Below are positions 27,416 through 31,684 of a DNA stretch of 40,580 nt, one piece after another (the stretch's first letter is position 1; every line of letters begins with the position of its first letter). Source of the DNA: Mesorhizobium sp. (GTDB taxonomy: Bacteria > Pseudomonadota > Alphaproteobacteria > Rhizobiales > Rhizobiaceae); the NCBI RefSeq assembly GCF_016793485.1, contig NZ_JAEULZ010000034.1:1-40580 (forward strand). Reading direction: 5' to 3'. The notes beneath the pieces are model-generated. The model saw only the letters and a list, made by a program, of their open reading frames with translations, searched no databases and was not told the DNA's origin. Made by a program: the position numbers and the translations under genes.

Positions 27416-30310
27416 ATGGGCCTCATCCACGAAATCGATTACGGCACGCCGGCTTCCAAGTCCGAGAAGATGGTGACGCTCACCGTCGACGGCTTCGAGG
27501 TTTCGGTGCCCGAGGGCACGTCGATCATGCGGGCGTCGATGGACGCCGGCATCGAGATCCCCAAGCTCTGCGCGACCGACATGGTGGACGCGTTCGGCTC
27601 CTGCCGGCTCTGTCTGGTCGAGATCGAGGGGCGGAACGGAACGCCTTCTTCCTGCACGACGCCGGTGGCGCCGGGCATGGTGGTGCACACGCAGACCGGC
27701 CGGCTGAAGCAGCTGCGCAAAGGCGTGATGGAGCTCTACATCTCCGACCATCCGCTCGACTGCCTGACCTGCGCGGCGAATGGCGACTGCGAACTGCAGA
27801 CGCAGGCCGGCGCGGTCGGCCTGCGCGACGTGCGCTACGGCTATGACGGCGACAACCATGTGTTTGCAAAAAGCCGCAACGCGCTGTCGGAAAGCACCGC
27901 CAATGCGCGGTGGATGCCGAAGGACGAATCCAACCCGTACTTCACCTACGATCCGTCGAAGTGCATCGTCTGTTCGCGCTGCGTGCGCGCCTGCGAGGAA
28001 GTGCAGGGCACGTTCGCGCTGACCATCGAGGGACGTGGTTTCGGCTCGCGCGTATCGCCCGGAATGCACCAGCCGTTCCTGGAATCGGAATGCGTGTCCT
28101 GCGGCGCTTGCGTGCAGGCCTGCCCGACCGCGACGCTGACCGAGAAGAGCGTCATCGAGATCGGCCAGCCGGAGCACTCCAAGGTGACGACCTGCGCCTA
28201 TTGCGGCGTCGGCTGCTCGTTCAAGGCCGAGATGCGCGGCGAAGAGTTGGTGCGCATGGTTCCGTGGAAGGACGGCAAGGCCAATCGCGGCCACTCCTGC
28301 GTCAAGGGCCGTTTCGCCTATGGCTACGCGACGCACAAGGAGCGCATCCTCAACCCGATGATCCGCGAGAACATTTCGGATCCGTGGCGCGAGGTTTCGT
28401 GGGACGAAGCCTACAAGCATGTCGCCAGCGAATTCCGTCGCATCCAATATCAGTATGGCAAGGCTTCCATCGGCGGCATCACTTCGTCGCGCTGCACGAA
28501 CGAGGAAACCTATCTCGTCCAGAAGCTGATCCGCGCCGGCTTCGGCAACAACAATGTCGACACCTGCGCCCGCGTCTGCCACTCACCGACCGGCTACGGC
28601 TTGGGACAGGCCTTCGGTACTTCGGCCGGCACACAGGACTTCGACTCGGTCGAGGACAGCGACGTGATCATGGTGATCGGCGCGAACCCGTCGGCCGCGC
28701 ATCCGGTCTTCGCCTCGCGCATGAAGAAGCGCATCCGCAAGGGTGCGAAGCTGATCGTGCTGGACCCGCGCGTCACCGAGACGGTGGATTCGGTGCATGC
28801 CAAGGCCGACTGGCACCTGCCGCTGAAGCCCGGCACCAACGTCGCCGTCGTCACCGCGCTGGCGCATGTCATCGTCACCGAAGGCCTGTTCAACGAGCAG
28901 TTCATCCGCGAGCGCTGCGAGTGGGACGAGTTCCAGGACTACGCGGAGTTCGTCTCCCACGAGAGCCGCAGCCCGGAAGCGATCGAGAAGCTGACCGGCG
29001 TCCCGGCCGAACTGGTGCGCGGCGCGGCGCGGCTCTATGCAACCGGCGGCAACGGCGCGATCTATTACGGCCTCGGCGTCACCGAGCACAGCCAGGGTTC
29101 GACCACCGTCATGGCGATCGCCAACCTCGCCATGCTTACCGGCAATATCGGCCGGCGCGGCGTCGGCGTGAACCCGCTGCGCGGCCAGAACAACGTGCAG
29201 GGCTCGTGCGACATGGGCTCCTTCCCGCACGAACTGCCGGGCTATCGCCACATCTCGGGCGACGCCGTGCGCGATATCTACGAGAGCCTGTGGGGCGTGA
29301 AGCTCGACAACGAGCCCGGCCTGCGCATCCCCAACATGCTGGACGCGGCCGTCGAGGGCACGTTCAAGGGCATCTACATCCAGGGAGAGGACATCCTGCA
29401 GTCGGACCCAGACACGAAGCATGTCTCGGCCGGTCTTGCGGCAATGGAATGCGTGGTCGTGCAGGACCTGTTCCTGAACGAGACGGCCAACTACGCGCAT
29501 GTCTTCCTGCCGGGATCGACCTTCCTGGAGAAGGACGGCACCTTCACCAATGCCGAGCGCCGTATCAACCGCGTCCGCAAGGTGATGAGCCCGAAGAACG
29601 GCTATGCCGACTGGGAGGTGACGCAGTTGCTCGCCCAGGCGATGGGGCTGAACTGGAACTACAAGCATCCCTCGCAGATCATGGACGAGATCGCCAAGAC
29701 GACGCCGAGCTTCGCCCTCGTCTCCTACGACTATCTGGAGAAGATGGGCTCGGTGCAGTGGCCATGCAACGAAAAGGCGCCGGAAGGTACGCCGATCATG
29801 CATGTCGAAGGTTTCGTGCGCGGCAAGGGCAAGTTCATCCGCACCGAATATGTCGCGACCGACGAGAAGACCGGCCCGCGCTTCCCGCTGCTGCTGACCA
29901 CCGGCCGCATTCTCAGCCAGTACAATGTCGGCGCGCAGACGCGGCGCACGGCAAACGTCATGTGGCACGACGAGGACCGGCTGGAGATTCATCCGCACGA
30001 CGCCGAGCAGCGCGGCATCCGCGACGGCGACTGGGTGAGGCTCGCAAGCCGAGCCGGCGAGACGACACTGCGCGCGCTGATCACCGAAAAGGTGGCGCCG
30101 GGCGTCATCTATACGACCTTCCATCACCCGGACACGCAGGCCAACGTCATCACGACCGACTACTCCGACTGGGCGACCAACTGCCCGGAATACAAGGTCA
30201 CCGCCGTGCAGGTGTCGCCGTCCAACGGCCCGAGCGAGTGGCAGCGCGAGTATGATGAACTCGCCAAGCGCAGCCGGCGGATCGAAGGCCATCTCGAGGC
30301 GGCGGAGTGA
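27416..30310 (+). CDS. fdsA: NAD-dependent formate dehydrogenase alpha subunit (molybdenum, catalytic)
   Basis: The 964-residue catalytic subunit holds the Mo-bis-MGD cofactor and a chain of iron-sulfur clusters. N-terminal [2Fe-2S] ligands are C52, C63, C66 and C80. A His-containing [4Fe-4S] site is H112, C116, C119 and C125. Two ferredoxin-type clusters follow (C183, C186, C189, C193 and C226, C229, C232, C236). The cluster next to molybdenum uses C260, C263, C267 and C295. The active-site pair C388-H389 (CARVCHSPT) matches Sec140-His141 of E. coli FdhF. The C-terminal domain (from about 830) is the usual MGD-binding barrel. It has an AGGAGAC ribosome site. FdhD, encoded after the DUF559 gene, should be needed for its activation. 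Confidence 0.96.
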   Translation: MGLIHEIDYGTPASKSEKMVTLTVDGFEVSVPEGTSIMRASMDAGIEIPKLCATDMVDAFGSCRLCLVEIEGRNGTPSSCTTPVAPGMVVHTQTGRLKQLRKGVMELYISDHPLDCLTCAANGDCELQTQAGAVGLRDVRYGYDGDNHVFAKSRNALSESTANARWMPKDESNPYFTYDPSKCIVCSRCVRACEEVQGTFALTIEGRGFGSRVSPGMHQPFLESECVSCGACVQACPTATLTEKSVIEIGQPEHSKVTTCAYCGVGCSFKAEMRGEELVRMVPWKDGKANRGHSCVKGRFAYGYATHKERILNPMIRENISDPWREVSWDEAYKHVASEFRRIQYQYGKASIGGITSSRCTNEETYLVQKLIRAGFGNNNVDTCARVCHSPTGYGLGQAFGTSAGTQDFDSVEDSDVIMVIGANPSAAHPVFASRMKKRIRKGAKLIVLDPRVTETVDSVHAKADWHLPLKPGTNVAVVTALAHVIVTEGLFNEQFIRERCEWDEFQDYAEFVSHESRSPEAIEKLTGVPAELVRGAARLYATGGNGAIYYGLGVTEHSQGSTTVMAIANLAMLTGNIGRRGVGVNPLRGQNNVQGSCDMGSFPHELPGYRHISGDAVRDIYESLWGVKLDNEPGLRIPNMLDAAVEGTFKGIYIQGEDILQSDPDTKHVSAGLAAMECVVVQDLFLNETANYAHVFLPGSTFLEKDGTFTNAERRINRVRKVMSPKNGYADWEVTQLLAQAMGLNWNYKHPSQIMDEIAKTTPSFALVSYDYLEKMGSVQWPCNEKAPEGTPIMHVEGFVRGKGKFIRTEYVATDEKTGPRFPLLLTTGRILSQYNVGAQTRRTANVMWHDEDRLEIHPHDAEQRGIRDGDWVRLASRAGETTLRALITEKVAPGVIYTTFHHPDTQANVITTDYSDWATNCPEYKVTAVQVSPSNGPSEWQREYDELAKRSRRIEGHLEAAE

Positions 30311-30329
30311 TCGGCGCTCCGCCCTTCCC

Positions 30330-30391
30330 CTCCCCCTTGCGGGGAGGGTGGACGGCCGCCGAAGGCGGAAGGACGGGTGGGGTAGCCTCGG
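30330..30391 (+). repeat. Left arm of the composite hairpin repeat flanking the DUF559 gene
   Basis: This arm has two conserved blocks, 30330-30351 (CTCCCCCTTGCGGGGAGGGT and on) and 30372-30391 (GACGGGTGGGGTAGCCTCGG), with a variable hairpin CCGCC-GAA-GGCGG between them. Both blocks recur inverted to the right of the gene, at 30821-30842 (21 of 22 identical) and 30789-30808 (19 of 20 identical). It begins 19 bp after the fdsA stop. Confidence 0.85.
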
Positions 30392-30428
30392 ACGCACTGC
30401 GCCCCTCTAGGATCGTAAGAGTTGGACC

Positions 30429-30860
30429 ATGCCTCGCACCCTCGTGACAGCAGAGATGCGAATAAAGGCCAAAGGCCAGCGGCGCTTCGCGACGAGGGGC
30501 GAGACCTTGGTTTGGTATGAATTGAGAGACCTGAAGGCAGAGGGACTGAAGTTTCGTCGTCAATCGCCCATTGGTCCTTACGTGGCCGACTTCGTATGTT
30601 TCGATCCGAAGGTCGTCGTTGAAATCGATGGCGATCAACACGAGACTGAAAGCGGAAAACGGCACGATTCTAATCGTGATGAGTATATGAGGGCTTCCGG
30701 CTTCATGGTGCTTCGCTACGATGCAGGTGATGCGCTCACACATGCTTGGCATATTGCGCGAGACGTCAGGGATAAGGCCGGTGCACTGCCGAGGTTACCC
30801 CACCCGTCTCGCTACGCGAGCCACCCTCCCCGCGAGGGGGAGGGTGAGGTCGGCGTATGA
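30429..30860 (+). CDS. DUF559 protein, Vsr/PD-(D/E)XK endonuclease fold, inside an inverted repeat
   Basis: The 143-residue protein belongs to DUF559, small proteins with the very-short-patch-repair/restriction-endonuclease fold. Conserved features are E25 and W29 (GETLVWYELR), FRRQSPIGPYVADFVC (43-58), with D54, and VVVEIDGDQH (62-71), with E65, D67 and H71, which together would form a metal-binding nuclease site. Function is not established for the family. The gene sits between fdsA and fdhD and is bracketed by two inverted copies of a composite hairpin repeat. Residues 121-143 are encoded by the right repeat itself (LPHPSRYASHPPREGEGEVG). The stop overlaps the fdhD start (ATGA). Codon use is less GC-biased than that of its neighbours. 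Confidence 0.9.
   Translation: MPRTLVTAEMRIKAKGQRRFATRGETLVWYELRDLKAEGLKFRRQSPIGPYVADFVCFDPKVVVEIDGDQHETESGKRHDSNRDEYMRASGFMVLRYDAGDALTHAWHIARDVRDKAGALPRLPHPSRYASHPPREGEGEVGV
30789..30842 (-). repeat. Right arm of the composite hairpin repeat, overlapping the DUF559 3' end
   Basis: This is the inverted copy of the arm at 30330-30391: block CCGAGGTTACCCCACCCGTC (30789-30808), a different inner hairpin CTCGC-TAC-GCGAG (30808-30820), and block 30821-30842. It begins exactly at codon 121 of the DUF559 gene and is translated as its C-terminus. The inner hairpin differs in sequence and length from that of the left arm, as in mosaic repeats. Confidence 0.85.
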
Positions 30861-31684
30861 GGCTGCGCCCTCCCCTTACGCAGACGATGCGCCTGACGCG
30901 GCGTGCGGCGGGTACGGCGTCAAGCAACCGCACCGTTCCCGAGGAAACGCCGGTGGCGTTTTCCTTCGCCGGGACGACGCATGCCGTGATGATGGCTTCG
31001 CCCGCCGATTTCGAGGATTTCGCGCTCGGCTTCTCGCTGACGGAAGGCATCATAGATGCGCCCGAAGAAATCGAGGCGATCGAGGTCGAGGATCACGGTG
31101 CAGGAGTTGATATCCAGATCCGCCTGAAGGACCAGGCGAACGATCGTTTCCAGGCGCGCCGTCGCAGGCTCGCCGGTCCGGTCGGGTGCGGGCTCTGCGG
31201 CATCGAATCGATCGAGGAGGCGATGCGCTCGGTGGACAGCGTTTCGCGCGACGCGATCACGCTGTCGGCCGCCGACATCGTGCAATCGGTCAAGCTGCTT
31301 TCCAGGGTGCAGCCGATGCATGCCGAGACCGGCGCGGTGCACGCGGCCGGCTTCTATGTGCCGGGCAAGGGCATCGTGCAGGCGCGCGAGGACGTCGGGC
31401 GGCACAACGCGCTCGACAAGCTTGCCGGCGCACTATCCCGCAAGGGCATCAACGGCTCCGATGGCGCGGTCGTGGTGACCAGTCGCGTGTCGGTCGAGAT
31501 GGTGCAGAAGACGGCTGCCATCGGCGCATCGTTCATCATCGCGGTGTCCGCGCCCACCGCGCTGGCGATCCGCACGGCGGACGAGGCCGGCATGACATTG
31601 GTCGCGCTGTTGCGCGGCGAGGATTTCGACGTGTTCACCCACCCTGAACGCGTGACAGACGGAGCAACGCGCGATGTCGCATGA
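30857..31684 (+). CDS. fdhD: Sulfurtransferase FdhD for formate dehydrogenase activation
   Basis: The 275-residue protein moves sulfur from a cysteine desulfurase onto the molybdenum cofactor of formate dehydrogenase, which is needed for activity. The conserved CGLCG motif (C111, C114) is present, as are the segments FALGFSLTEGII and REDVGRHNALDKL. In fds operons this gene is called fdsC. The start at 30857 overlaps the DUF559 stop (ATGA); another ATG at 30887 might be the original start, so the first ten residues may be a by-product of the inserted cassette. It overlaps fdsD by 11 bp. Confidence 0.94.
   Translation: MRLRPPLTQTMRLTRRAAGTASSNRTVPEETPVAFSFAGTTHAVMMASPADFEDFALGFSLTEGIIDAPEEIEAIEVEDHGAGVDIQIRLKDQANDRFQARRRRLAGPVGCGLCGIESIEEAMRSVDSVSRDAITLSAADIVQSVKLLSRVQPMHAETGAVHAAGFYVPGKGIVQAREDVGRHNALDKLAGALSRKGINGSDGAVVVTSRVSVEMVQKTAAIGASFIIAVSAPTALAIRTADEAGMTLVALLRGEDFDVFTHPERVTDGATRDVA

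Follow-up and report, generated by a model that had tools for sequence, protein, structure and literature searches.

Transposases of the REP-associated tyrosine transposase (RAYT) type are the known partners of repetitive extragenic palindromic (REP) sequences, with which, and with REP doublets forming hairpins (REPINs), they make up the systems called REPtrons. The E. coli enzyme, TnpAREP, needs both the structure of the REP and a motif preceding it (PMC8266576), and Alphaproteobacteria possess none or only few tnpAY1 genes (PMC6006769). In agreement with the latter statement, no member of the RAYT family Y1_Tnp (PF01797), the sole transposase family searched for, was found in 43 of 46 Rhizobiaceae genomes, including the one studied here. 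We describe a locus in a stretch of 40,580 nt from Mesorhizobium sp. (assembly GCF_016793485.1, contig NZ_JAEULZ010000034.1), referred to as the window (genome G000, locus L148), where a gene for a protein of DUF559, a family named for its unknown function, sits at 30429–30860 inside the gap between fdsA and fdhD, with inverted, hairpin-bearing REP-like repeats on either side. The comparisons reported below make it probable that the segment 30319–30853 is a single-gene mobile cassette whose DUF559 protein is the cognate REP-processing nuclease, with a RAYT-like role and an unrelated fold.

The resemblance to a REPtron concerns several features: a single gene is bordered by inverted palindromic REPs (in the window and at 39 of 78 loci of the family), each enzyme group has a REP type of its own, REP pairs without a gene occur in the genome, and a motif lies beside the hairpin, a G-rich tail here and GTAG there. 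The enzyme, on the other hand, is a DUF559 protein (PF04480) with a predicted EDxHD/Vsr-like fold and not an HUH tyrosine transposase, and PF01797 is absent from G000. EDxHD homing endonucleases are metal-dependent, with active sites resembling those of type II restriction enzymes (PMC3943268). One of them, I-Bth0305I, resembles the DUF559 protein in predicted fold (Foldseek E 5.8e-3; profile E 9.4e-5) and in the apparent mobility of the nuclease gene itself. The DUF559 gene differs from it in lying between REPs and not in an intron or intein (neither was searched for), in coding for 143 residues that leave no space for an extra DNA-binding domain, and in having possible targets that are repeated genome-wide instead of one allele. 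Vsr has a related fold as well (Foldseek E 0.07–0.09) and Caulobacter VsrA has a DUF559 domain; the accessible text on VsrA contains no mention of REP bracketing or mobility (PMC12907096). Finally, miniature inverted-repeat transposable elements accompanying an autonomous transposon are comparable in that short gene-less copies have the ends of the gene-bearing copy, but the one gene of the cassette codes for DUF559 and not for a DDE transposase, and its ends are hairpin REPs with freely changing inner stems.

In the window, the outer arms of the two repeats (30319–30351 and 30821–30853) are inverted over 33 nt with 88% complementarity, and a second pair of arms (30372–30391 and 30789–30808) over 20 nt with 95%. 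The outer hairpin of each repeat is CCCTCCCC..GGGGAGGG and the tail GGGTGGGGT is directed at the gene; the inner hairpins are unlike (CCGCCGAAGGCGG at 30356–30368 versus CTCGCTACGCGAG at 30808–30820). The inverted-flank score of this locus is 37.0, a value attained at none of 219 slid positions of the same 16 kb. An earlier note, made from the letters of this DNA, had claimed a DUF559 gene between fdsA and fdhD, nuclease-like residues in its product (E25, D54, E65, D67, H71), conserved blocks inverted around it and differing inner hairpins. All of these are upheld, the gene by its PF04480 match (E 3e-26, 91.9 bits against a Pfam cut-off of 20.6), the neighbours by NCBIfam and the residues by an alignment of 50 members, whereas the outer arms, within which the claimed blocks are contained, proved longer than stated. 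Single-strand folding compared with shuffled letters gave z −0.06 for the left repeat and z −2.24 for the right one, so that folding energy by itself is no proof. A single sub-threshold Rfam match in the region was judged to be chance.

Analysis of DUF559 genes in general reveals that such flanks are a frequent companion of the family. PF04480 was detected in 29 of the 46 family genomes, a patchy presence. The loci analysed come from 80 stretches reaching at most 8 kb to either side, in which 32 genomes contribute 81 DUF559 places (family and genus matches, broken halves counted as one); three weak matches within long frames (L161–L163) are among the 81 and left out of the 78. At 42 of the 81 loci (42 of 78 without the weak three), originating from 23 of the 32 genomes, the flanks outscored all slid controls of their own stretch, where 0.42 loci would be expected. 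An inverted-flank score of at least 30 was reached at 39 of 78 DUF559 loci and, among the neighbouring genes delimited with a crude frame finder, at 2 of 721 (Fisher P 7e-42), and a score of at least 35 at 31 of 78 and 0 of 721, respectively (0 of 212 for neighbours under 600 bp). Flanks equally common at unrelated genes, the outcome that would have spoken against the mobile cassette proposed in the earlier note, were thus not found, and the idea is supported; the related expectation for homologues holds for the 39 loci with strong inverted flanks and fails for the other half. One or more of seven tail motifs occur within 300 bp on either side of 69 of 78 DUF559 genes versus 46 of 721 neighbours, tails on both sides at 39 of 78 versus 0 of 721, and tails on both sides facing the gene at 29 of 78 versus 0 of 721; since the motifs were picked after viewing DUF559 flanks, these tail counts are biased toward the idea, whereas the flank alignment test, with its slid and neighbour-gene controls, is independent of them. 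Phylum-wide, with one locus per genome (28 in all) and a slid control borrowed from the family set, a score of at least 30 was obtained at 15 of 28 loci, and at 14 of 24 outside the family. Two further loci may be mentioned in passing: L107 (G005) holds two DUF559 genes at one site, 2 kb apart and about 68% identical over 239 bp, and at L007 (G000:C49:599713-600026) a frame-broken DUF559 has repeat pairs on its right and none clear close by on its left, perhaps a decaying cassette.

The DUF559 clade and the REP type belong together. On a tree of the 78 domains, where each tip was labelled with the commonest tail within 350 bp (9 tail-less loci and 2 ties being excluded), the seven tail types require 13 changes over 67 labelled tips, compared with 34–46 (mean 41) in 300 shuffles; the tree is built from 108 columns only and about half of its forks are weak. 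Single-linkage joining reduces the 78 loci to 34 sites, many of them common to several genera; to allow for this, the count was repeated with one tip per site and type, which gave 11–12 changes over 37 tips (shuffles: mean 23.8, minimum 19). In the window clade the tail is of type A at all five loci that have one of the seven (G000, G033, G001, G030 and G048), the sixth (L129, G019) being tail-less. Strict type A counts over the 46 genomes are highest in the four genomes whose window-clade gene has type A tails (13, 13, 5 and 4; at most 3 elsewhere), and the strict pattern is present in 8 of 9 genomes with a type A DUF559 versus 2 of 37 without; part of these counts is made up of the cassettes' own flanking copies, after whose removal the comparison is 5 of 9 versus 2 of 37 (P 0.0016). 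Moreover, at one site, with both flanks matching, six genomes have a D-clade gene with type D tails (L084, L093, L095, L099, L112 and L157) and G048 has a window-clade gene with type A repeats (L131); a second site is similar. Gene and repeats therefore change together.

The repeats themselves behave as REP-like elements. A genome search with the left repeat of the window found 28 matching places in G000, its own two included, among which are seven inverted pairs spaced 74–134 bp, leaving no room for a DUF559 gene. The earlier note had spoken of terminal inverted repeats; the inverted flanks stand, but the term is too simple, as the REP-like units also occur gene-less and often as inverted pairs. 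The corresponding explanation, by which the repeats would be no more than the terminal inverted repeats of a single recent insertion at this locus alone, could invoke the 88–95% complementarity of the arms; it is refuted by the 28 genome places and by the recurrence of this arrangement at DUF559 genes of other genera, which leave it next to no probability. Type D repeats, with the tail CAGAGGGGGG, were found by pattern search in 23 of 46 family genomes, with a maximum of 93 copies per genome, and the matches listed include many opposite-strand pairs about 120–150 bp apart. They occur in 21 of 29 genomes with a DUF559 gene versus 2 of 17 genomes without any. The letters of the inner hairpin vary freely, yet their pairing tends to be kept: the mean stem is 5.5 for 41 distinct type A inserts (drawn from 43 of the 44 strict matches) versus 3.1 for shuffled letters (500 shuffles, highest 3.5), and 3.96 versus 2.46 (highest 2.88) for the 25 distinct type D inserts among the matches listed. 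The stem count is crude, and the left insert of the window scores just 1, its stem lying further in. Fixed tails combined with interchangeable stems suggest, on sequence grounds, that shape plus tail would be recognised. GGCAGYG just inside the repeats was seen in 2 of 5 type A copies facing the gene and in 7 of the remaining 23, which include cassette right arms; these numbers are too small to rely on. Some type D hairpins hold TGCCGGCA, which fits the YGCCGGCR site given in PMC12907096 for the VsrA-linked Caulobacter methyltransferase; other variants are without it, and the agreement may be chance.

The cassette is mobile, judging from empty junctions, a second junction and copies limited to gene and repeats. 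The fdhD regions of 25 genomes were viewed (22 of 35 with a match, the 13 weaker ones being omitted, plus three congeners), the fdsA end was located in 20 and the presence of an insert was judged by eye from the 150 bases past the fdsA stop. Empty sites, as looked for in the earlier note, are the rule: 16 of the 20 readable fdsA–fdhD junctions, those of the three congeners among them, lack such an insert, two carry the cassette (G000 and G033) and two carry type D repeats without a gene (L199 in G022 and L189 in G047), which indicates that this junction accepts repeats of different kinds. A short CT-rich stretch at the G035 junction may be what is left of a repeat, and Mesorhizobium ephedrae (L081) likewise bears the cassette between fdsA and fdhD. 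Relatives of the window gene with 57–58% identity occupy another junction in G001 and G030, where the surrounding genes, in G001, are presumably those of a branched-chain amino acid transporter. A reciprocal empty site was not obtained for the G001 junction, whose flank is unmatched in the three remaining genomes of the genus, and PLSDB, searched for close strains that differ in the cassette, gave 43 records, all below 60% identity, and no polymorphic pair.

In a different explanation, DUF559 is a free-standing homing endonuclease that cuts gene-less REPs, repair off a cassette copy then inserting the gene; the REPs would be targets and homology arms and would spread otherwise. Such a nuclease would fit the commonness of gene-less REP pairs, the type D REPs without a gene in G022 and G047, the ends of shared units at or within REPs, the occurrence of different DUF559 clades at one site in different genomes, and I-Bth0305I as second among solved folds. 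It agrees less with the specificity of REP type to each clade across genera and sites, according to which REPs and gene travel as a set, and with the three congeners in whose fds junction both gene and REP are missing; we consider it unlikely, if worth keeping in mind. The congeners, lacking gene and repeats alike, favour the arrival of a whole unit.

Copies within one genome also speak for mobility. Among 88 same-genome DUF559 pairs six match across the gene, and four of these six have no further match of at least 150 bp beyond gene and repeats, other than repeat pairs: L104/L116 (73.5%), L104/L137 (76.0%) and L116/L137 (88.9%) in G029, and L085/L098 (77.8%) in G036, over 446–607 bp. The common stretch of L116/L137 stops at the tail, CAGAGGGGGG / CCCCCCTCTG. 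In the fifth pair, L119/L122, the match is confined to the domain. The comparison with RAYT systems made in the earlier note gains strength from these G029 and G036 copies, which share gene and repeats alone, and from the correspondence between DUF559 clade and repeat type. The number of sites (34 for 78 loci) indicates that movement is slow.

Several observations weigh against the reading as a mobile cassette with its own REP-processing enzyme. Strong inverted flanks are missing at 39 of 78 DUF559 loci, and 9 of 78 show none of the seven tails within 300 bp. Counted genome by genome, type D repeats and DUF559 clade agree weakly (8 of 9 versus 15 of 37, P 0.02); G000 itself holds 39 type D copies without a D-clade DUF559, and G039 and G047 have type D REPs with no DUF559 match. 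Many cassettes are fixed at one site across genera. An exact target-site duplication is unproved, TCGGCG flanking the cassette on both sides with no close empty allele for comparison. The closest pair, L092/L096 (G030), with 94.5% identity across 508 bp and ends that lie within or next to REPs, was dropped as a clean cassette copy, since the two loci also have in common a 1 kb block (88%) on the opposite side of the gene, inverted and with a long open frame of 272–273 codons; the arrangement resembles a larger duplication in which the gene was flipped between its inverted repeats. To our knowledge, moreover, no nuclease of this fold joins strands alone.

The last two points would be natural if the gene were a passenger, with another transposase or REP–REP recombination moving cassettes and REPs, and the protein serving for defence, RNA processing or control of its own message via the REP hairpins. 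A PADLOC match to DpdF, though weak (E 8e-4, 61 of 1078 positions), and the insertion of insertion sequence elements into REPs of Sinorhizobium meliloti (PMC1525189) point the same way. The clade-by-clade match of REP type is not required of a passenger, and the Y1 family, the one transposase family searched for, is missing in 43 of the 46 genomes; we hold a passenger to be improbable.

The coordinates of the locus are collected in Table 1. The C-terminal part of the DUF559 frame is encoded within the right repeat. At L080/L133 (G033) and L081 (M. ephedrae) DUF559 and FdhD lie in one open frame running through the right repeat, of 457 and 480 aa between stops, respectively; in M. ephedrae the joint frame crosses extra nested repeats too.

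Table 1. Features of the DUF559 locus in the window, with positions on the forward strand
Feature	Position	Strand	Remarks
Left REP-like composite repeat, type A	30319..30391	+	outer hairpin 30328–30348; inner variable hairpin 30356–30368; tail GGGTGGGGT 30375–30383 facing the gene
DUF559 gene, 143 aa	30429..30860	+	PF04480; EDxHD/Vsr-like nuclease fold predicted
Right REP-like composite repeat, type A, inverted	30789..30853	-	tail complement 30797–30805; inner hairpin 30808–30820; outer hairpin 30824–30844; overlaps the 3' end of the DUF559 frame
TCGGCG, left copy, possible target-site duplication (weak)	30311..30316	+	no close empty site as proof
TCGGCG, right copy, possible target-site duplication (weak)	30850..30855	+	
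fdsA (formate dehydrogenase alpha subunit), left neighbour	27416..30310	+	NCBIfam
fdhD, right neighbour	30857..31684	+	NCBIfam; ATG overlaps the DUF559 TGA

In the alignment of 50 members R44, D54, E65, D67, G68, H71, D80, R83 and R96 are invariant and E25 is nearly so; E25, D54, H71 and D80, all conserved in this set, are the residues that we tentatively assign to the EDxHD motif. The structure model has a mean predicted local distance difference test score (pLDDT) of 89.6. Foldseek ranks the DUF559 protein 3hrl first (E 1.2e-6), followed by I-Bth0305I (3r3p) and Vsr at the values given above, with mitochondrial ribosome chains ranking between these matches. The profile search agrees on 3hrl and, for the second half of the domain, on I-Bth0305I; matches to Toxin B chains (E 0.2–0.8) in the same search were taken as chance. 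The genes of G033 and M. ephedrae, which occupy a common site, differ by a nonsynonymous divergence dN of 0.15 and a synonymous divergence dS of 1.18; dS was saturated in 5 of 9 pairs tried.

The Vsr matches raise the question of a host function, and here too there is evidence at odds with a mobile REP-processing enzyme: in Caulobacter cells devoid of the ScmA methyltransferase, a DNA damage response is driven by VsrA, a DUF559-domain protein with a predicted role as mismatch repair endonuclease (PMC12907096). If the window protein were a Vsr-like host repair enzyme, REPs would lie nearby by accident or would gather beside small genes. Neither is what the neighbours tell, none of which, including the 212 under 600 bp, attains the flank score of 35 found at 31 DUF559 loci, and the correspondence of clade and REP type, the patchy presence in 29 of 46 genomes and the copies sharing gene and repeats alone are equally foreign to such a role, which we regard as very improbable.

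We thus return to the cassette with its cognate nuclease. Its association with the repeats, the clade–repeat match, the insert-free junctions, the copies of gene and repeats only and the conserved nuclease-type residues are established by sequence comparison. We infer from them that the DUF559 protein may act on, and cut, REP hairpins. Copying could follow a transposition-like route or a homing-like one with repair on a cassette-bearing template, the present data being compatible with either; the homing-like route is attractive in that a nuclease acting by hydrolysis would depend on repair by the host. In the proposed sequence of events, each DUF559 clade would partner one REP type, its protein would recognise the hairpin and G-rich tail of its own REP and would nick or cut there, and repair would then copy the cassette, as well as gene-less REP pairs, into new intergenic places. 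More tentatively, DUF559 might constitute a second, independently evolved class of REP-mobilising enzymes: hydrolytic EDxHD/Vsr-like nucleases, each cutting its cognate REP type at hairpin and tail and thereby spreading both its gene and the REPs, single or paired, in Proteobacteria with few or no RAYTs.

A literature search found no paper joining DUF559 and REPs, within a partial coverage in which subscription journals were mostly outside and the family may bear other names. The main text of a 2025 REP survey contains no words starting with DUF, RAYT or transposase (PMC12306157), and one REP superfamily seemingly lacks a dedicated transposase (PMC3733652). The pairing of DUF559 with REPs bears on which enzyme spreads palindromic repeats in RAYT-poor bacteria; its apparent recurrence in many bacteria suggests a function for the family and a way in which such repeats may spread. 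If the proposal is true, the function of DUF559 and the spread of REPs would become one question, the protein being expected to cut its own REP type and not others, and caution would be advisable before lone DUF559 genes are taken for repair or defence genes.
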